Shown in pieces: positions 1 through 54,222 of a stretch of 64,000 nt of DNA (within the stretch, counting starts at the first letter, position 1; each line of letters opens with the position of its first letter). The notes under the pieces were generated by a model that saw nothing but the letters and a program-made list of their open reading frames with translations, was not told the origin of the DNA and searched no databases. The stretch is from contig JAFDWO010000043.1 in NCBI GenBank assembly GCA_018268415.1, positions 1 to 64,000 on the forward strand. Reading direction: 5' to 3'. The translations under genes were made by a program, and so were the position numbers. Source of the DNA: Actinomycetota bacterium (lineage in GTDB: Bacteria > Actinomycetota > Thermoleophilia > Solirubrobacterales > 70-9).

Positions 1-20
1 AACACGGAGATCCTTGAGCA

Positions 21-345
21 ATGGAAGGGTCGGGAGGAAGGGTGACGTTCCCGGCATCTTCGTGACGGGGTCTCCCTTCGGTGACGGTCCCGTGACGGAT
101 CGGTCGCACCCTCCGGCCCCCGGGGGCCGGGATCGGGGGATCCGTGGGAGCGCCGTGTCCCTCACGCGAGGGATCCGCCTCACTCGCCCGCATCCTCCCG
201 CGGGGGCCTTCCGTGCTTCCCCCGCACGCTCCCCGCACCCTCGGCCGTCTCGGCCACGGCCACAGCCTGCCAGGGCCGTGGACGAGACGGCCGCATCTCT
301 TTCCGCCGTGGGCGACAGCTCGAGGGCGCTGGAGGCCTTCCCCCA
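21..345 (-). repeat. Composite palindromic intergenic element, copy 1 (cut by window edge)
   Basis: This is the first of five related non-coding elements in the window. Read on the minus strand, it starts with the tag motif (GGCGACAGCT on the plus strand, about 311-321). Next is hairpin 1: arms 242-260 and 275-293, 19 bp with one mismatch, around the 14-nt loop CACAGCCTGCCAGG (261-274). A GC-rich stretch follows (about 110-240) that closely matches 42650-42840 in reverse, then a block around GGGACCGTCACCGAAG (about 75-95) that is also present in copies 2 and 5. The element lies downstream of the minus-strand lipid kinase operon. Reading frames through it are not conserved between copies. Apart from this element and the palindrome at 379-428, I see no gene in 1-401. 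Confidence 0.8.
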
Positions 346-5365: not shown

Positions 5366-5382
5366 TCGCCCACACATAAGCG

Positions 5383-5496
5383 CCACATCTAGAGGGGTGG
5401 AGGGACTGGCCCAGTGAAGCCCCGGCAACCATCTCGGACCTGACGGTTCGAGGCAGGTGCCAACTCCAGCAGATCAACGTGATCTGACAGATGTGG
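5383..5496 (+). promoter_or_regulatory. SAM-I (S-box) riboswitch aptamer
   Basis: The sequence contains the S-box core: GGTGGAGGGACTGGCCC, then a kink-turn-like GTGAAGCC, CGGCAACC and later AGGTGCCAACTCCAGC. P1 is a perfect 8-bp helix (CCACATCT 5383-5390 with AGATGTGG 5489-5496). A small P4 hairpin (GATC-AACGT-GATC) precedes the 3' side of P1. The family binds S-adenosylmethionine and normally switches off methionine or cysteine genes when SAM is plentiful. The downstream gene is annotated by homology as threonine synthase, an unusual target. Confidence 0.95.
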
Positions 5497-5512
5497 GGGA
5501 CGTCCGATCGGA

Positions 5513-5567: not shown

Positions 5568-6803
5568 ATGTCGGTAGAGAACTTGAAGTGCAAGGAGTGC
5601 GGGGCCGAGTACGAGCTCGGTGCCAGCTATTTCTGCGAGCAGTGCTTCGGCCCGCTGGAGGTCCGCTATGACCACTCGGGCCTGGACGCCGCCGAGGCGA
5701 AACGACGGATCCAGGCCGGCTCCCGGGGGATCTGGCGTTATGCCGACTTCCTGCCCTTCTCCGGCCGGCCCGGGGACCCGCTGGAGCCCGGTCTGACGCC
5801 GCTCCTGCGCACCGACCGCCTGGCCGAGCGGCTCGGGGTCGACGCCGAGATCTGGATCAAGAACGACGCCGCCAACCCGACCCACTCGTTCAAGGACCGG
5901 GTGGTCGCGGTCGCAATCGCCAAGGCCCAGGAGCTCGGCTTCCGGACCGTCGCCTGCGCCTCGACCGGCAACCTCGCCAACGCGGTGGCCGCCCACGCCG
6001 CCGCGGCCGGGCTCGAGTCCTTCGTGTTCGTGCCCTCCAACCTGGAGGAGCAGAAGCTGCTCGCGACCGGCGTCTACGGGACCAACCTGGTCGGCGTGCG
6101 GGGCAACTACGACGACGTCAACCGGCTCTGCACCCAGCTGGCCGAGACCCACCCCTGGGCCTTCGTGAACGTCAACCTGCGCCCGTACTACGCGGAGGGG
6201 TCGAAGACGCTGGCGTTCGAGACGGTCGAGCAGCTCGGCTGGGAACTCCCCGACCGGGTGGTCAGCCCGATCGCCTCGGGGTCGCTCTTCACCAAGCTGG
6301 GTCGCGGGTTCCAGGAATGGCTCGACCTGGGCCTGGTCGAAGGCGAGCAGCCGGCCTTCAACGGCGCCCAGGCGGAGGGCTGCAGCCCCGTCGCCACCGC
6401 CTTCGCCGAAGGCTGGGACGTCTGTAAGCCGCAGCGTCCCGACACGATCGCCAAGAGCCTCGCGATCGGCGACCCTGCCGACGGCCCCTACGCGGTCGAG
6501 CACGCGCGCAAGACCGGCGGCGGCATCGACGCGGTGAGTGACGCCGAGATCCGCGAAGGGATCAAGCTGCTGGCCGAGACCACCGGGATCTTCACCGAGA
6601 CCGCCGGCGGGGTGACGATCGCCGTGCTGCGCAAGCTGGCCGAACGGGGTGAGCTCAAGTCGGGCGAAAAGGTCGTCGCCTACATCACCGGCGAGGGACT
6701 GAAGACGCTCGACGCGACGCGCGATACGTTCTCCATGCATGAGATCGATCCGAGTCTCGACAGCTTCGATGCCGAGTTCGCCGCCCAGGAGGTAAGTGCC
6801 TAG
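5568..6803 (+). CDS. thrC: Threonine synthase-like PLP enzyme under SAM-riboswitch control
   Basis: A 411-residue fold-type II PLP enzyme. The N-terminus carries a zinc-ribbon (Cys8, Cys11, Cys23, Cys26). The PLP lysine is Lys109 in THSFKDR, the cofactor phosphate loop is ASTGNLANA, and the C-terminus has ITGEGLKT. Homology says O-phosphohomoserine to threonine. The start is ATG 5568, preceded by AAAGGAAAG; a longer reading frame would run into the terminator. The gene is regulated by a SAM-I riboswitch and is followed directly (TAG then ATG) by a ThiS/MoaD-like sulfur carrier. Both facts point to sulfur-amino-acid synthesis, for example homocysteine from O-phosphohomoserine using carrier-bound sulfide. 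That activity is inference; threonine synthesis remains possible. Confidence 0.88.
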   Translation: MSVENLKCKECGAEYELGASYFCEQCFGPLEVRYDHSGLDAAEAKRRIQAGSRGIWRYADFLPFSGRPGDPLEPGLTPLLRTDRLAERLGVDAEIWIKNDAANPTHSFKDRVVAVAIAKAQELGFRTVACASTGNLANAVAAHAAAAGLESFVFVPSNLEEQKLLATGVYGTNLVGVRGNYDDVNRLCTQLAETHPWAFVNVNLRPYYAEGSKTLAFETVEQLGWELPDRVVSPIASGSLFTKLGRGFQEWLDLGLVEGEQPAFNGAQAEGCSPVATAFAEGWDVCKPQRPDTIAKSLAIGDPADGPYAVEHARKTGGGIDAVSDAEIREGIKLLAETTGIFTETAGGVTIAVLRKLAERGELKSGEKVVAYITGEGLKTLDATRDTFSMHEIDPSLDSFDAEFAAQEVSA

Positions 6804-7076: not shown

Positions 7077-7861
7077 GCAAACCGCCGGTCGTCGTCCTCT
7101 GCGGGGGAAGGGGAACCAGGCTCCGGGAGAAGACCGAGTCGGTGCCGAAGCCGCTGGTCGAGATCGGCGGACGGCCGATCGTCTGGCACGTGATCGGGAT
7201 CTACGCGGCGCAGGGCTTCCGCAGTTTTCTCCTGGCGACCGGGTATCTCGGCGAGCAGATCGAGCGGTTCGTCGCCACCGAGCCCTGGCCCGACGGGGTG
7301 ACGGTGGAGTGCGTCGACACCGGTCTCGACACGCCGACGGGCGGGCGGATCGCGGCGCTTGGCGACCGTCTGGCGAGCGGCACCTTCTGCGCGACCTACG
7401 CCGACGGGGTCGCCGACATCGACCTCGGGGCGCTGCTCCACGGCCACCGCGAGGCGGGTTCGGCGGCCACCGTGACCGTGGTCCGTCCCAACCTGCAGTG
7501 GGGGGTGGCGGAGCTGGACGGGGACCGCGTGGCGGGCTTCGTCGAGAAGCCGCGCTCCGAGCACTGGATCAACGGCGGCTTCTTCTGCTTGGAGCCGACG
7601 GCGCTCGACTACATCGGTCCCGACGCCGTGCTGGAGCGCGAGCCGCTCGAGCGCCTGGCCGCGGCGGGCCAACTGCGCGCCCACCGACACGAGGGCTTCT
7701 GGGACTGCATGGACACCTACAAGGACGCGGTGGTGCTCGACGACCTCTGGCGCGCCGGCGAAGCCCCCTGGCCCGCCTGGCATGTTGATGGGCCGAAAAC
7801 TCAAGACATAGGTGAGTTTTCGGCCCATCAACAAGGTGTGGACGCGAGGACCCGTGGCTAG
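7073..7861 (+). CDS. Sugar-phosphate nucleotidyltransferase (RfbF-like)
   Basis: A 262-residue protein with the nucleotidyltransferase signature VLCGGRGTRLRE at the N-terminus and the KPLVEIGGRPI substrate loop, most like glucose-1-phosphate cytidylyltransferases. It would make NDP-sugar for surface polysaccharide. The start is GTG 7073, overlapping the sulfur carrier stop. Its last about 25 codons are not family sequence: they run through a dispersed palindromic repeat (7784-7832) that also occurs at the end of miaA. The natural C-terminus has therefore probably been replaced or extended by repeat insertion. The following epimerase/dehydratase overlaps its end and is a likely pathway partner. 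Confidence 0.85.
   Translation: MSKPPVVVLCGGRGTRLREKTESVPKPLVEIGGRPIVWHVIGIYAAQGFRSFLLATGYLGEQIERFVATEPWPDGVTVECVDTGLDTPTGGRIAALGDRLASGTFCATYADGVADIDLGALLHGHREAGSAATVTVVRPNLQWGVAELDGDRVAGFVEKPRSEHWINGGFFCLEPTALDYIGPDAVLEREPLERLAAAGQLRAHRHEGFWDCMDTYKDAVVLDDLWRAGEAPWPAWHVDGPKTQDIGEFSAHQQGVDARTRG
7784..7832. repeat. Dispersed palindromic repeat, family A, copy 1
   Basis: Perfect 20-bp inverted repeat, arms 7784-7803 and 7813-7832 with a 9-nt loop. The arm sequence GTTGATGGGCCGAAAACTCA is identical to that at 54174. The repeat lies inside the 3' coding end of the nucleotidyltransferase and just before the next gene's start. There is no T-tract, so a simple intrinsic terminator is unlikely. Confidence 0.9.
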
Positions 7862-11552: not shown

Positions 11553-12150
11553 GGATGGGGCCCTCTCAAGCTGTCGCCCGCCTAGATCCCCGACCTCTCC
11601 AAGCTGTCGCCCGCAGCGGAAAAGGGCGGGCCGTCTCGCCCACGGCCCTGGCCGGCTGTGGCCGTGGCCGAGACGGCCGGGTATGTGGGGAGTGTGGAGG
11701 ACCGGGGCGGAGGGTCACGGGGGTGCCACCGATCCGTGGCGAGACCGTCACCGAAGAGGGACCTGGTCACGAAGACGTAGGGAACTCCACCCTTCCTCCC
11801 GTGTTGTCCAACGCTCACGGACGCGTTCCGTACTTTGACCCTGCCATGGCATGGTCAAAGCGCGGAACGCGTTCTCGGGCCTTCTTTTCGGGCCCGAAAA
11901 CAGGCCGAAGGTTGCGGAAAGGGTGACCTTCCCGGCATCTCCGCCACCGATCGGTCCTCCTGGACCTCACTCACGGACAAACCCGTCACGGAAGTCCGAC
12001 CCACCCCCCGTCCTGTCCCGCCTTCCCCACGACCCCTCCCGTCCCGGGCGCCTCATGGCGCTCACAGCCTGCCAGGAGCGCCATGAGGCGCCCGGGACCA
12101 TCTCGGACGGGTGTGGGGGTCGGGGTCGGGCGGCATCTCGGACGGGTGCG
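11553..12150 (+). repeat. Composite palindromic intergenic element, copy 2
   Basis: Read on the plus strand. The tag motif AAGCTGTCGCC occurs at 11568 and 11601. Hairpin 1 is 11629-11647/11660-11678 (19 bp, one mismatch, 12-nt loop CTGGCCGGCTGT). Hairpin 2 is 11821-11840/11853-11872. A small CGGGCC...GGCCCG hairpin follows (about 11876-11896). Hairpin 3 is 12041-12062/12077-12098, a perfect 22 bp with loop CACAGCCTGCCAGG. CTCGGACGG tail units lie at 12102 and 12137. It fills the gap between convergent genes, alpha/beta hydrolase and phosphotransferase. I see no credible gene in 11525-12174. Confidence 0.88.
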
Positions 12151-12174
12151 GGGGTCGGGGGCGGCCCGACCCAC

Positions 12175-12984
12175 CTACGTCCCCGCGTACTCGCGCCAGA
12201 TCTCGCCGTAGAGCTCGTGGGCGGCGGTGAACGGGGTCAGGTCCTGGTCGTGGTCCCAGCCATAGGCGTCCAGCGCTTCGCGGACGAAGGCGGCGTCGGC
12301 CCCGCGGTCTTCGAGCGCCATCACGTAGCCCGCGACGTCCCAGTGGGCGGGTCCGCGGAGGACGTCCTCGAAGTCGTTCCAGACCACGCCCCCCGGCGTC
12401 CGCAGGAGGTTGCTGAGCGAGGCGTCGCCGTGGAGCGCCTGGGTCGGGTGAGCGGTGTCGAAGACCGTGTCCGCAAGGGCGGCGAGGCGGTCGCCGAGGG
12501 ATTCGACCTGCCGCGTCGGCGGCAGCCGGCGGCGCAGGCGCTCGATGTCGTCGCGCAGGTCGGCCATGGTCCCGAGCTCCCCGGAGAAGTCCGCCAGAGC
12601 GTCGTGCAGGCGGCGCAGGGCGAGGCCCAGGAGCTCGGCGTCCCAGGGCTCCATCGGACCCTCGACCTCCACCCAGGAGGAGAACGTCATCCACAGCCCG
12701 CCCGAGCGGAAGGGTCCCGGCGCGATCATCGAGCTCGGCGCCACCGCCAGTCCGGTCGGGGCGAGAAAGTCGGTGACCGCCACCTCGCGCGACAGCCACA
12801 GCCGCGGATCGTCGTGCAGGGCCACCGTCCCGCTCATCACCCGGGCGACGACCGGCGAGGGCAACATCCGGATCAGCACGTTGCTCCCCGAGTAGATGAC
12901 CTCCGCGTCCCCGCACGGCAACCCGTGCTTCACCGCGATCGTGCACGCCGCCGCGAGCGCTTCGTCCTCGATCCCGAAGGTCAC
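12175..12984 (-). CDS. Aminoglycoside/choline-kinase-like phosphotransferase
   Basis: A 269-residue member of the APH/choline kinase fold. The Brenner catalytic loop LHGDASLSNLLRT is at about residue 180, followed by VVWNDFEDVLRGP where the Asp binds Mg-ATP. The N-lobe is short and poorly conserved. Relatives phosphorylate small molecules such as homoserine, choline, methylthioribose or antibiotics, and nothing here identifies the substrate. The start is GTG 12984. The gene is convergent with the alpha/beta hydrolase across element copy 2. Confidence 0.85.
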   Translation of the reverse strand: MTFGIEDEALAAACTIAVKHGLPCGDAEVIYSGSNVLIRMLPSPVVARVMSGTVALHDDPRLWLSREVAVTDFLAPTGLAVAPSSMIAPGPFRSGGLWMTFSSWVEVEGPMEPWDAELLGLALRRLHDALADFSGELGTMADLRDDIERLRRRLPPTRQVESLGDRLAALADTVFDTAHPTQALHGDASLSNLLRTPGGVVWNDFEDVLRGPAHWDVAGYVMALEDRGADAAFVREALDAYGWDHDQDLTPFTAAHELYGEIWREYAGT

Positions 12985-14477: not shown

Positions 14478-14975
14478 GGCGTCCGAGGCGCGGGCGGCCG
14501 TCCGAGGAAGGCCCAGCGCCTCATCGGGTCCTGGCAGTCCGTAGCCCCCATGAGGCGCCTGGGACGTTGGGCCTTCTTCCCGAATACGTCACAAGGACGC
14601 GAGGAAGACGCCAGGAACGTCACACCTCCCGGCCCTCGGGCGCCCCAGACCCCATCGTGGTCGTCCTTTCCGACCCCTCCGGGAGCGCGGTCGTCCTTTC
14701 CCACCTATAGCGCCGCTTAGGACGACCGCGCCCGTGGGGGCGCCGCTTAGGACGACCGCGCCCGTGGGGGCGCCGCTTAGGACGACCGCGCCCGTGGGGG
14801 CGCCGGTTAGGACGACCACGATGGAGATCGGTGATGGTTCCGTCACCCTCCCGGTGACCCTCCCACCACAGCACCTTCACGTTCCCCTTATACGGCGGCC
14901 CTCTCGCCGCGGCCACGGCCTGCCCTGGGACGTGGCGAGAGGGCCGCGCCCCTGTCCCCGGGGCGTCGGCTCAAG
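14478..14975 (-). repeat. Composite palindromic intergenic element, copy 3 (partly degenerate)
   Basis: Read on the minus strand. A tag-like sequence lies at about 14955-14975. Hairpin 1 (14895-14911/14931-14947, 17 bp including one wobble) has a loop containing CACGGCCTGCC. The middle is replaced by a 30-bp tandem repeat (14711-14820). A decayed hairpin 3 has arms 14512-14524 and 14550-14563. CCGTCCGAG tail units (reverse of CTCGGACGG) lie at about 14480 and 14498. In hairpin 1 a pair that is G-C in the other copies is C-G here (GTCTCG/CGAGAC becomes CTCTCG/CGAGAG), a compensatory change. It fills the gap between rnz and pyrR, where I see no gene. Confidence 0.78.
14711..14820. repeat. 30-bp tandem repeat, 3.7 units
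   Basis: Three exact 30-bp units (14711-14740, 14741-14770, 14771-14800) and a 20-bp partial unit with two changes. Each unit contains CTTAGGACGACCGCG and a GCGCCCGTGGGGGCGC near-palindrome. Just upstream, GGTCGTCCTTTCC occurs twice (about 14660, 14690) and is nearly complementary to the TAGGACGACC core, so unit and upstream copy could pair. The units are contiguous with no spacers. Because 30 is divisible by 3, false reading frames with 10-residue repeats appear on both strands. Confidence 0.95.
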
Positions 14976-34874: not shown

Positions 34875-35310
34875 GCCGCCGCCCGCGGCCCCTGCACCCG
34901 TCCGAGTCACCTCCCGGGCGCCTCATGGCGCTCCTGGCAGGCTGTGAACGCCATGAGGCGCCCGGGACGGTAGGAGGTGGGACTCCCGTCACGGTCCCGT
35001 GTGGAAGAGGGATCCAGAGGGTCCGATCCGTGACGAAGAAGCCAGGAACGTCACCCTCCCGGATCCTTTCGTCTCTTCTCGGGCCTGAGAGAAAGGCCCG
35101 GGGACGCCCTGCGTGTCTTTTCCACCGTATGGGGTGGAAAAGACACGCAGGGCGTCCGTGACGGTTGGTCAACACGGGAGGAAGTGAGGAGTTCCCACGG
35201 CACTCCGCGCATACCCGGCCGTCTCGGCTGCGGCCACAGCCGGCCAGGGCCGTGGACGAGACGGCCGCGTCCCTTTCCCCGGGCGACAGCTTCAAGAGTC
35301 CCATCCCTTC
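34875..35310 (-). repeat. Composite palindromic intergenic element, copy 4
   Basis: Read on the minus strand. Tag motif at 35282-35292. Hairpin 1 is 35216-35235/35248-35267 (20 bp, three mismatches, loop with the AGCCGGCC core). Hairpin 2 is 35102-35126/35133-35157, a perfect 25 bp with a stem unrelated to that of copies 2 and 5 except at its GGACGC/GCGTCC base. A CGGGCCT/AGGCCCG hairpin lies at about 35077-35099. Hairpin 3 is 34912-34932/34947-34967 (one mismatch, loop CCTGGCAGGCTGTG). A CCGTCCGAG tail unit lies at 34898. It lies between the peroxiredoxin 3' end and the pnp leader. The remaining 35311-35475 holds the pnp leader; I see no other gene. Confidence 0.87.
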
Positions 35311-42283: not shown

Positions 42284-43562
42284 CGGGGAAGCTGTCGCCC
42301 GGGAAAGGCCGCTACCGCTTCAAGCTGCGCCCGGAGAGGGATGGAGCCTCGCCAGACTGGCGTTCGCACTTTGCCCTGACCGGTACGGCAGAGTGCGAAC
42401 GCCTCGGGACGGGGCCTCGGGAAGCCGCCGCCCGGGGGAGGGATGGAGCGCTTGAAGCTGTCGCCCGTGGGGGAAGGGATGCGACCAGAGGAGGCTGACG
42501 CCCCGCGGGGCGAGACCCCCCGGCCCCCTCGAGCTGTCGCCCCCAGGCGAAAGGGATGCGGCCCCCTCAAGCTGTCGCCTCCAGGCGAAAGGGATGCGGC
42601 CGTCTCGTCCACGGCCCGGGCAGGCTGTGGCCGTGGCCGAGACGGCCGGGGGTGCGGGGAGCGGGCGGGGGAGAGCACGGAAGGCCCCCGCGGGAGGGTG
42701 CGGGCGAGTGAGGCGGATCCCTCACGCGATGGACACGGCGCTCCCACGGATCCGTGACGGGCGTCCCAGGACCCCCCGATCCCGGCGTCCGGGGGCCGGA
42801 AGGTGCCACGGATCCCCCCCCCGATCCCGGCCCCGGGGGGCCGGACGGTGCGACCGTTCCGTCACGGGACCGTCACCGAAGAGGGACCTTGTCACGGAGA
42901 CGTAGGGAACTCCACGCCTCCTCCCGTGTTGTCCAACGCTCACGGACGCGTTCCGTACTTTGACCCTGCCATGGCAGGGTCAAAGTACGGAACGCGTCCT
43001 CGGGCCTTCTTTTCGGGCCCGGGAACGAACCGAAGGTTGCGGAAAGGGTGACGTTCCCGGCGTCTTCGTGACCGATCGGGGCGAAGTGCGGCCTCTCCCG
43101 CACGGACCCGTCACGGAAGTCCGACCTCCCCCCGTCCTGTCCCGCCTTTTTCACGACCCCCTCCCGTCCCTGTGTCGTCTTTTTCACGACCTCCTCACGT
43201 CCCTGTGCCCGCCTTCCCCACGACCCCCTCCCGTCCCCGTGCCCGCCTTCCCCCCGACCGCCCTCCCGTCCCGGGCGCCTCATGGCGCTCACAGCCTGCC
43301 AGGAGCGCCATGAGGCGCCCGGGACGCATCTCGGACGGGTGCGGGGGTCGGGGTCGCGGCGCGACACGGACGGGTGGGGCGGCCGGGGTCGCGGCGCGAC
43401 GCGCCGCCACGACGCAACTCGGACGGCCGCGCCGCCTGGGCCACGCCGCACCTCGGACGGGCGCACGGGCCGGTCGCGCGGCATCTCGGACGGCCGCCCC
43501 GGCCGCGGGCCGCGCGGCAACTCGGACGGCAGGAGGCCCGAGGTCGGGTGCGACTCGGACGG
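42284..43562 (+). repeat. Composite palindromic intergenic element, copy 5 (largest, expanded)
   Basis: Read on the plus strand. Tag motifs are at 42289, 42455, 42530 and 42569. An extra 12-bp hairpin lies at 42359-42370/42392-42403. Hairpin 1 is 42597-42616/42629-42648 (20 bp, one mismatch, loop CGGGCAGGCTGT). Next is a GC-rich spacer shared with copy 1. Hairpin 2 is a 56-bp perfect palindrome at 42944-42999, followed by a CGGGCC..GGCCCG hairpin (about 43000-43022). A four-unit tandem lies at 43133-43266. Hairpin 3 is 43268-43289/43304-43325 (22 bp perfect, loop CACAGCCTGCCAGG), then seven CTCGGACGG-type tail units to 43562. It separates convergent rnj and the histidine kinase. I see no credible gene in 42271-43714. 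Confidence 0.9.
43133..43266 (+). repeat. Imperfect tandem repeat, four units of 32-35 bp
   Basis: Units start at 43133, 43165, 43198 and 43232. Each begins CGTCCyTGT-like and contains GCCTTyyyCACGACC-like sequence. Copy 2 of the element has a single such unit (about 12009-12040), so the array is a local expansion within the element. No spacers, so not a CRISPR. Confidence 0.8.
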
Positions 43563-43621: not shown

Positions 43622-43668
43622 GAAAAAAAGCCCGCCGGGACAGTGTCTGGGGAGAATCCCGGCGGGCT
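43622..43668 (-). terminator. Intrinsic terminator of the two-component operon
   Basis: On the minus strand AGCCCGCCGGGA (43657-43668) pairs perfectly with TCCCGGCGGGCT (43629-43640), 16-nt loop, followed by a run of seven T (43623-43629 on the plus strand as A). It lies 46 nt after the histidine kinase stop. Confidence 0.93.
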
Positions 43669-43714
43669 AGTGTCTCGTCCACCGGCAAATCTAGGGACGG
43701 GAGCTTAAGGCGTC

Positions 43715-53436: not shown

Positions 53437-54198
53437 GTGGAAGCCGTTCGGGGCTTCACCGAGACGCCCTTGAAAGTCCTGGCCATCTTCGGGCCCACCG
53501 GGGTCGGCAAGACCGGCGTCGCCGTGGAGCTCGCGAGCCTCCTGCGTGAGAAGGGCGAGGATCCCGTGGCGATCAACTGCGACGCGCTGCAGGTCTACGC
53601 AGGGCTCGACGTACTGACCGGGGCGGCGAGCGCGGCCGAGCGCGAGGTGCTGCCGCACGAGCTGCTCGGAATCGTGCCGATCACCGAGGACTTCTCGATC
53701 CACGAGTACATGCCGCTGGCCCACCGGGCGATCGACGCGGCGCTGGCCGCCGGGCGGACGCCGATCGTGGTCGGCGGCACCGGGCTCTACCTGCGCGCCG
53801 CGCTCGCCGACCTCTCGCTGCGCAAGGTTCCCGCCTTCTCGGAGGAGTCGGAGCTGTGGTCGGGAGAGACCCGTCACCCGACCCGGATCTTCGGCCTCGA
53901 CATGGACCGGGCGCGGCTCTACGAGCGGATCAACGCCCGCGTCGACGCGATCGTCGCGGAGGGCGGGGAGGAGGAGGCGCGCCGCGCCGACGCCCTCGGC
54001 CCCGGCCGCACCGCCCGCAAGGCCCTCGGCCTGAACGAAATCCTCGCCGGCGATCTGGAGACGATGAAGCGCCGCTCCCGCAACTACGCGCGCCGCCAGC
54101 TCACCTGGATGCGCAAAATCCCCGACTTGACCACGATCGACCGCACCAACCTCACCGACCACCAGGTCGCCATGTTGATGGGCCGAAAACTCAAGTAG
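53437..54198 (+). CDS. miaA: Compact tRNA dimethylallyltransferase MiaA
   Basis: 253 residues, against about 300-315 normally. The P-loop IFGPTGVGKTGVAVELA, substrate motif NCDALQVYAGLDVLT and VVGGTGLYLRAAL are intact, as are LGLNEILAGD and RNYARRQLTWMRKI. The roughly 60-residue segment that usually follows GTGLYLRALL (including the conserved DP..A..IHPND.RR..RALE block) is missing; the sequence passes directly from LADLSLRKVPAFSEES to the GLDMDRARLYERI strand. The last residues (MLMGRKLK) and the stop are encoded by palindromic repeat family A. Activity is probable but unproven. Confidence 0.88.
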   Translation: MEAVRGFTETPLKVLAIFGPTGVGKTGVAVELASLLREKGEDPVAINCDALQVYAGLDVLTGAASAAEREVLPHELLGIVPITEDFSIHEYMPLAHRAIDAALAAGRTPIVVGGTGLYLRAALADLSLRKVPAFSEESELWSGETRHPTRIFGLDMDRARLYERINARVDAIVAEGGEEEARRADALGPGRTARKALGLNEILAGDLETMKRRSRNYARRQLTWMRKIPDLTTIDRTNLTDHQVAMLMGRKLK

Positions 54199-54222
54199 GG
54201 CTTGAGTTTTCGGCCCATCAAC
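54174..54222. repeat. Dispersed palindromic repeat, family A, copy 2
   Basis: Perfect 22-bp inverted repeat (54174-54195 and 54201-54222) with a 5-nt loop TAGGG that contains the miaA stop codon. The first 20 nt of the arm are identical to the copy at 7784, and CAT precedes both copies. Confidence 0.93.

Follow-up and report, generated by a model that had tools for sequence, protein, structure and literature searches.

In BIME-1 elements, REP doublets and REPINs, two palindromic units lie in opposite orientation around a spacer (PMC2817692, PMC3733652). These repeats are extragenic, lineage-specific and mosaic, and they occur in more than 100 copies. Y1 transposases have been proposed as the motor of REPs (PMC2817692). 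A separate group, the CGTC-tagged REPs, also forms inverted dimers, yet this palindromic family has no dedicated transposase; its stems are 8-9 bp long, its loops measure 4-5 nt, the tag lies outside the stem and the hosts described belong to five other phyla (PMC3733652). The word 'Actinobacteria' is absent from the main text of that paper, which names M. tuberculosis among the hosts of untagged REP-like sequences.

Two further kinds of repeat are relevant. Pneumococcal BOX elements are composites of boxA, boxB and boxC modules that include a variable tandem array; they fold strongly and occur in excess between convergent genes (PMC3049150). Their authors suggest that this convergent bias may be evidence of mobile parasites. 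MITEs are non-autonomous and gene-less, reach high copy number and contain much base pairing (PMC3049150).

Here we describe an element that shares general traits with the families above and lacks defining features of those tested. We judge, with a probability of about 0.58, that it is a large, gene-less, non-autonomous mobile repeat of the BIME or BOX kind, spread within a single genus of Solirubrobacterales and recognised by its inverted hairpins, which form the ends.

The window, the whole stretch of DNA analysed, is 64,000 nucleotides long and corresponds to bases 1-64000 of contig C98 in a 4.74-Mb draft genome of 160 contigs (G000). A first-pass annotation of the window had proposed five copies of an intergenic family whose parts come in a shared order. 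The complete order is a AAGCTGTCGCC...GGGATG array, hairpin 1, a GTCACGRAG linker, hairpin 2, pyrimidine-rich tandem repeats, hairpin 3 and a CTCGGACGG array (Table 1), with tandem arrays that vary in unit number between copies. Copies 2 and 5 are complete, and copy 4 joins them if a linker with three mismatches is allowed; copies 1 and 3 do not have the full set. The linker described as shared is exact in copies 1 and 5 only, differing at one position in copy 2 and at three in copy 4. Copy 1, taken at first for a short variant, retains hairpin 1, linker and tag and was cut by the assembly, since the window starts at base 1 of C98. Copy 3 contains no AAGCTGTCGCC at up to one mismatch and no linker at up to three, and a 30-bp repeat array fills its middle. 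The strands assigned to all five copies were correct.

Table 1. Positions in the window of the five copies and their parts
Feature	Position	Strand	Remark
Copy 1	1-345	-	truncated at contig start
Copy 1, linker	76-91	-	
Copy 1, hairpin 1	242-293	-	
Copy 1, tag	311-321	-	
Copy 2	11553-12170	+	between convergent genes; has 3' array
Copy 2, hairpin 1	11627-11680	+	
Copy 2, linker	11741-11756	+	
Copy 2, hairpin 2	11819-11874	+	
Copy 2, hairpin 3	12041-12098	+	
Copy 3, divergent	14478-14975	-	terminal hairpins divergent
Copy 3, hairpin-3-like	14516-14558	-	
Copy 3, 30-bp repeat middle	14652-14824	-	
Copy 3, hairpin-1-like	14893-14949	-	
Copy 4	34875-35310	-	between tandem genes
Copy 4, hairpin 3	34912-34967	-	
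Copy 4, hairpin 2	35102-35157	-	
Copy 4, hairpin 1	35209-35274	-	
Copy 4, tag	35282-35292	-	
Copy 5, 5' array of degenerate AAGCTGTCGCC...GGGATG units	42284-42596	+	3 exact, 4 within 1 mismatch; period 38 at 42521-42601
Copy 5, extra palindrome GGCGTTCGCAC...	42359-42403		separate palindrome family of G000
Copy 5, hairpin 1, loop CCGGGCAGGCTGTG	42597-42648	+	R1 match 42590-42655
Copy 5, linker, GTCACSGAAG-like motifs	42859-42943	+	GGGACCGTCACCGAAG at 42866-42881; limits by eye
Copy 5, hairpin 2	42944-42999	+	perfect 56-nt palindrome
Copy 5, 34-nt tandem array	43122-43272	+	4.5 units
Copy 5, hairpin 3	43267-43326	+	hairpin-1 unit inverted; loop CACAGCCTGCCAGG on + strand
Copy 5, 3' array of CTCGGACGG units	43327-43562	+	6 exact, 7 within 1 mismatch

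Chief among the new findings, and overlooked in the earlier description, is the identity of hairpins 1 and 3: they are a single unit, inverted relative to each other. The loops are inverted in 58 of 59 hairpin pairs drawn, with no duplicates, from seven sources, and the unit centres of these pairs lie 218-836 bp apart. The sole exception stands in the related genome G040, at the site of copy 5, where hairpin 3 is flipped relative to its own flanks. When units are oriented to the loop, CCYGGCAGGCTGTG, the 5' foot is mostly GGGATG/GGGACG or a variant of CGAGATG (judged by eye), followed by a related outer stem.

How does this architecture compare with the described families? The distance between the units, the third hairpin and the arrays set it apart from BIME-1 and the REPINs. 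GTAG REPs have stems of 5-13 bp, whereas the terminal units here are about 52-60 nt long, their stems counting about 18-23 pairs and their 14-nt loops hardly varying. Were this a REP/BIME family in the strict sense, mobilised by a RAYT (Y1 transposase), the inverted pairs, the high copy number and the extragenic position would be accounted for. However, Y1_Tnp (PF01797) was found in none of the 12 genomes of the genus, drafts that are 78-100% complete, in a search whose controls were positive in 5 of 14; GTAG stands at the foot of none of 118 units, and stems and spacing far exceed those of REPs. Mobilisation by a RAYT is thus largely refuted, and we regard it as scarcely credible. CGTC occurs inside the stems of the terminal units. 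BOX elements, compared here by description, are likewise modular with a variable tandem middle; they are described in Streptococcus and are built from their own three modules, while the two terminal units of our element repeat one another in opposite orientation. Whereas MITEs are AT-rich (PMC3049150), this element is GC-rich, and its inverted hairpin units lie inside two outer arrays of different sequence.

The family is real and genome-wide. With copy 5 (42284-43562) as the query, at least 191 matches were obtained in its own genome; apart from copy 5 itself, at least 21 reach E <= 1e-200, over stretches of about 640-1090 bases, with scoring limited to 40 of 472 candidates. A covariance model of the terminal hairpin (R1), as the first-pass annotation had recommended, gave at least 150 matches in G000 (150 of 150 scored, from 18659 first-look candidates), with E-values that are rough, the model having been calibrated briefly. 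The first-pass annotation would have given up its family claim had the rest of the genome lacked further copies, and these matches uphold the claim. On contig C98 every R1 match is a hairpin 1. At least 17 of the listed matches fall within a 450-kb sample of G000, or about one in 26 kb, and extrapolation from these 17 of 150 gives about 180 elements in the genome. The density of one copy in 13 kb previously proposed from the window therefore exceeds the sample average. Copies in G000 are on average 90% identical over aligned columns in pairwise alignments, so no very recent burst is seen.

Could the similarity be an artefact of low complexity? Shuffle controls reject this. The tag AAGCTGTCGCC occurs 11 times in the window at up to one mismatch (8 within copies) where 1.43 are expected, a count reached in none of 100 shuffles; GGGACCGTCACCGAAG, at up to three mismatches, occurs 8 times (5 within copies) against 1.71 expected, again in none of 100 shuffles. 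The whole-copy matches and the stem covariation described below point the same way. Nor is the element coding: 911 of 4259 indels in 300 pairwise alignments of 25 copies (pairs that share sequences) are multiples of three, and there is no shared reading frame, as had been claimed.

No named element fits within the collections searched. Rfam gave nothing on the element at gathering score, which rejects a named Rfam family, and below that threshold just miRNA-type and other weak matches. Plasmid and phage collections contained no match to the element and viral contigs none to a 20-nt pattern, which rejects a phage or plasmid vehicle in those collections. In the openly accessible journal literature, titles and opening lines of abstracts yielded no account of the element. 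Elsewhere in the window a SAM riboswitch lies on the plus strand at 5382-5497, upstream of a gene called at 5568-6803.

Among the genomes searched, R1 is confined to a single genus. In the order, Solirubrobacterales, it matches 6 of 151 genomes, all from one genus with 12 members, and in the class 2 of 299, both in the same genus; these searches used stricter filters that miss weak matches. The carriers have genomes of 3.8-4.7 Mb, compared with 2.4-3.4 Mb for the genus members without an R1 match. One of the latter, G039, holds part of an element, namely the linker and a palindrome resembling hairpin 2; terminal units are absent from the locus read. When copy 5 was the query against 50 genomes of the family, 15 matched: seven clearly (E of 8e-12 or better; G000, G032, G037, G038, G039, G040 and G042, all of the same genus), the other eight at E of 2e-4 to 9e-4. 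A pattern for hairpin 1 found at least 50 stretches in named genomes, in MAGs designated SZAS-10, SZAS-15, RYN_247 and 70-9. Among the matches listed there was also one contig labelled Proteobacteria LIN-13; its element is closest to one from SZAS-15, so the contig is probably misbinned.

Between related species the positions of the element turn over. We compared four stretches of G000 with the carrier G040 and the non-carrier G041, all of them drafts whose contigs break in these repeats. The stretches hold nine G000 elements, two more that are truncated where C51 and C91 begin being excluded; C91:8987 was left out because its flanks are absent from G040. Of the remaining eight sites, which include copy 1 (one flank) and a doubtful single unit at C91:16583, one is occupied in G040, in DNA that is 81-92% identical where it aligns. 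This is the site of copy 5, and there the G040 element lies on the opposite strand and is similar only in its terminal hairpins. G040 has no unit at the sites of copies 1-4, C51:3870, C51:16092 and C91:16583, and a unit scan of the gap loci agrees. The gap that holds copy 3 measures 638 bp in G000; its counterparts, by BLAST end points, are about 237 bp (G040) and 107 bp (G041) long. Two more sites, C46:65194 and C46:111048, are shared or half-shared; they were found by comparing element with element, a route biased toward presence. A G040 element stands beside a G000-like gene block on C92, and there is none there in the searched part of G000. The intergenic DNA in same-site gaps of G040 and G041 is unrelated, so that neither target duplications nor sharp ends can be read. 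As a separate observation, a phosphotransferase-like gene (PF01636) adjoins copy 2 at 12175-12984, and gene and copy are both absent at the matching site in G040 and G041.

Copies also cluster by genome. The best other match of an element lies in its own genome for 25 of 25 elements in G000, 13 of 16 in G040 and 10 of 10 in G042; with three elements each, G038 gives 2 of 3 and G032 0 of 3. In the two pairs that share a site the elements are no more alike than elsewhere, the pairs ranking 14th and 9th of 16. A repeat spreading inside each genome, with turnover in place, leaves this pattern, although deletion and homogenisation, instead of transposition, could also produce the turnover.

These distributions bear on the idea of a chromosome-organising array, in which GTCACGRAG motifs and cruciform-prone palindromes would be bound by a nucleoid protein or by gyrase. 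BIMEs provide the precedent, IHF interacting with the spacer of BIME-1 and gyrase being bound by BIME-2 (PMC2817692). The motif GTCACG[AG]AG is indeed concentrated between the hairpins of the 59 elements, at 2.44 per kb against 0.08 per kb in sampled contigs, a sample that includes elements. Its enrichment, however, may reflect merely the common descent of the copies. Half of the genus has no R1 match, nor have the remaining genomes searched in the order and class, and element positions turn over. We consider such an array improbable.

The terminal hairpins combine a 14-nt loop that is nearly invariant with a stem whose sequence varies while pairing is kept. Most unit sets were collected by the loop, with two or three mismatches permitted, which biases loop identity upward. 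We therefore relied on a check blind to the loop, covering 450 kb of G000 and 200 kb of G040. The outer arms of hairpin 1 alone retrieved a loop within one mismatch in 21 of 21 cases. With the shorter arms of hairpin 3 the loop was within two mismatches at 25 of 33 places, the other eight resembling, by eye, chance matches to the arms. Some loops are divergent, those of copies 2 and 3 among them.

We aligned 70 of 74 terminal units that differ mutually at four or more positions, having removed four with shifted or poorer stems by hand. Both sides have changed in 17 of 23 pairs, and 89% of cells are paired, a figure biased upward by the additional requirement that 14 of 20 positions be complementary. 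The covariation score, 0.342, is reached by none of 500 shuffles and collapses when the partner is shifted by one to three columns. Pairing is weakest at the outer end of the stem, where the five outermost pairs fail in 15-27 of the 70 sequences. Hairpin 2 behaves similarly: in 16 sequences of 56 nt, hand-picked by position and outer arm (which biases their pairing percentage upward), the outer arm is constant and the inner half varies. Both-side changes affect 17 of its 26 pairs, a number that 12 of 500 shuffles attain; the 71 cells with such changes (25.1 in shuffles) and the score of 0.501 are each matched by none of 500.

The hairpin structure is under constraint. Two processes could make the arms change in concert, selection acting on a folded strand and correction of the palindrome at the DNA level. 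A strand preference among wobble pairs is hinted at by cell counts (2 G-T against 38 A-C in hairpin 1, 3 against 10 in hairpin 3), in which a few shared substitutions dominate; event counts lend it no support (5 G-T against 9 A-C in hairpins 1 and 3, 13 against 9 in hairpin 2). The wobble pairs therefore settle no strand, and the structure may act in RNA or in DNA.

The elements avoid genes and favour convergent gaps. A simple gene caller applied to five G000 contigs placed units in 16 gaps (12 convergent, 3 tandem and 1 divergent), the unit-free gaps numbering 39, 181 and 62, respectively. Convergent gaps are thus occupied in 12 of 51 cases and other gaps in 4 of 247 (Fisher p = 2e-7; p = 9e-7 without the convergent gap C91:16583, whose one unit is divergent and may not belong), counts that leave out nine units by contig ends and divergent copies such as copy 3. 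The same bias appears in 200 kb of G040, at 4 of 25 against 2 of 103 (p = 0.013). No called gene contains a unit, and the sole units not placed in gaps are the nine near contig ends, all within 541 bp of one; the claim that the copies are intergenic thus fits the sample. Gaps that bear elements make up 12.3 of 18.4 kb of convergent intergenic DNA, and the 39 element-free convergent gaps have a median length of 56 bp. The 206 flanking proteins reveal no recurrent gene family, their largest groups containing duplicate loci and common paralogues. In G000, contigs C46, C24 and C51 at both ends, and C98 and C91 at their starts, terminate in or near elements; the repeats seem to fragment the assembly.

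Convergent position and strong covariation in both kinds of hairpin are what one would expect of a cis-acting RNA at mRNA 3' ends, where the hairpins of converging transcripts would terminate transcription both ways, or protect the 3' ends, and be kept by selection. Canonical U-tract terminators were found in just 3 of 51 convergent gaps, by a scan that is insensitive because, with its reach of 80 nt, it missed a terminator-like hairpin by copy 5. That ordinary-looking hairpin, at 43626-43671, is kept in both G040 and G041 and speaks against such a role for the element itself, although terminator-like sites scanned for there are in no excess over shuffles. So do the lack of conserved positions between related species, the absence of an R1 match from 6 of the 12 genus members and the wobble pairs, which indicate no settled strand. 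A function of this kind in RNA seems to us rather unlikely.

G000 is rich in other palindromes as well. Hairpins scoring 15 or more number 101 in 450 kb of this genome, 34 at terminal units, while 200 kb of G040 contain 26, of which 6 are at terminal units. The non-carriers G041 and G033 have 3 each, in 96 kb and 100 kb respectively; one shuffle of each of the four samples gave 2, 0, 0 and 0. Other palindrome families, such as GTTGATGGGCCGAAAACTCAAG...CTTGAGTTTTCGGCCCATCAAC, CGCTGTTCCTTATG...CATAAGGAACAGCG and GTTCGCACTTTGCCGT...ACGGCAAAGTGCGAAC, have conserved arms and variable self-complementary tips. They lie at 7781-7835, 54174-54222 and many further sites, and are common in the two carriers and rare in the stretches of the two non-carriers. 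By copy 1, at the end of a diacylglycerol-kinase-like gene, there is also a 56-nt palindrome (376-431) with a 24-pair score and a loop of 0.

This abundance raises the question of whether the element is a by-product of palindrome-making replication errors (template switching, which perfects inverted repeats) and homologous recombination among copies, with no transposase at all. The many perfect palindromes, the concerted change of hairpin arms and the one hairpin 3 flipped in place would all fit. SbcD, a palindrome nuclease, scored above its family cut-off in none of the 12 genus genomes (7 of the 12 gave weaker matches; controls 8 of 14), so that its loss throughout the genus is possible and may permit such elements. 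Yet SbcD is below the cut-off in non-carriers too, and its loss, considered as the cause, does not separate them from carriers. Replication errors also leave unexplained how the element reaches new intergenic sites and why an asymmetric 14-nt loop should be nearly invariant. We find this origin quite unlikely.

We return to the mobile repeat, and to the enzyme that might move it. IS110-type transposases are rejected as the motor, being present in one of the six R1 carriers and two of the six other members of the genus. The only one found in G037 (C182, L059 484-2020) is flanked by hairpins 1 and 3 of one element, apparently within a CCGCTGTTCC-type palindrome, which is unbroken in another G037 element. 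Insertion sequences that target REP palindromes have reportedly been described.

Of the four functions suggested by the first-pass annotation, a selfish non-autonomous element fits best, because positions turn over, copies in each of the three well-sampled genomes are closest to one another and the elements lie in convergent gaps; structured RNA, bidirectional terminator and nucleoid-protein array stay beside it as the less probable choices. We infer that a trans-acting enzyme would recognise loop and stem at both ends, as happens with inverted REPs in BIMEs. The flanking arrays and the GTCACGRAG-rich middle might serve as accessory binding or spacer modules, and these modules could lengthen and shorten through slippage. 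Elements build up between convergent gene ends, where insertion should be least harmful, and there they probably act as two-way road-blocks to transcription. A bolder version is conceivable, though doubtful: the element may represent a new class of bacterial non-autonomous mobile element, whose ends a non-Y1 enzyme, so far linked to no repeat, reads in folded form, going by the sequence of the loop and the shape of the stem and not by the stem's sequence. Stems would then drift freely while the loop stays fixed, and single end hairpins could flip in place.

Inverted palindromic repeat families without a transposase, such as the CGTC REPs, are an open problem. The element described here is large and abundant, offers a near-invariant loop as bait and occurs in some but not all members of its genus; with these properties, its motor can feasibly be searched for. 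In this lineage it shapes both genomes and assemblies: the gaps that contain it account for about two thirds of the convergent intergenic DNA in the sampled contigs, and it lies where contigs end.
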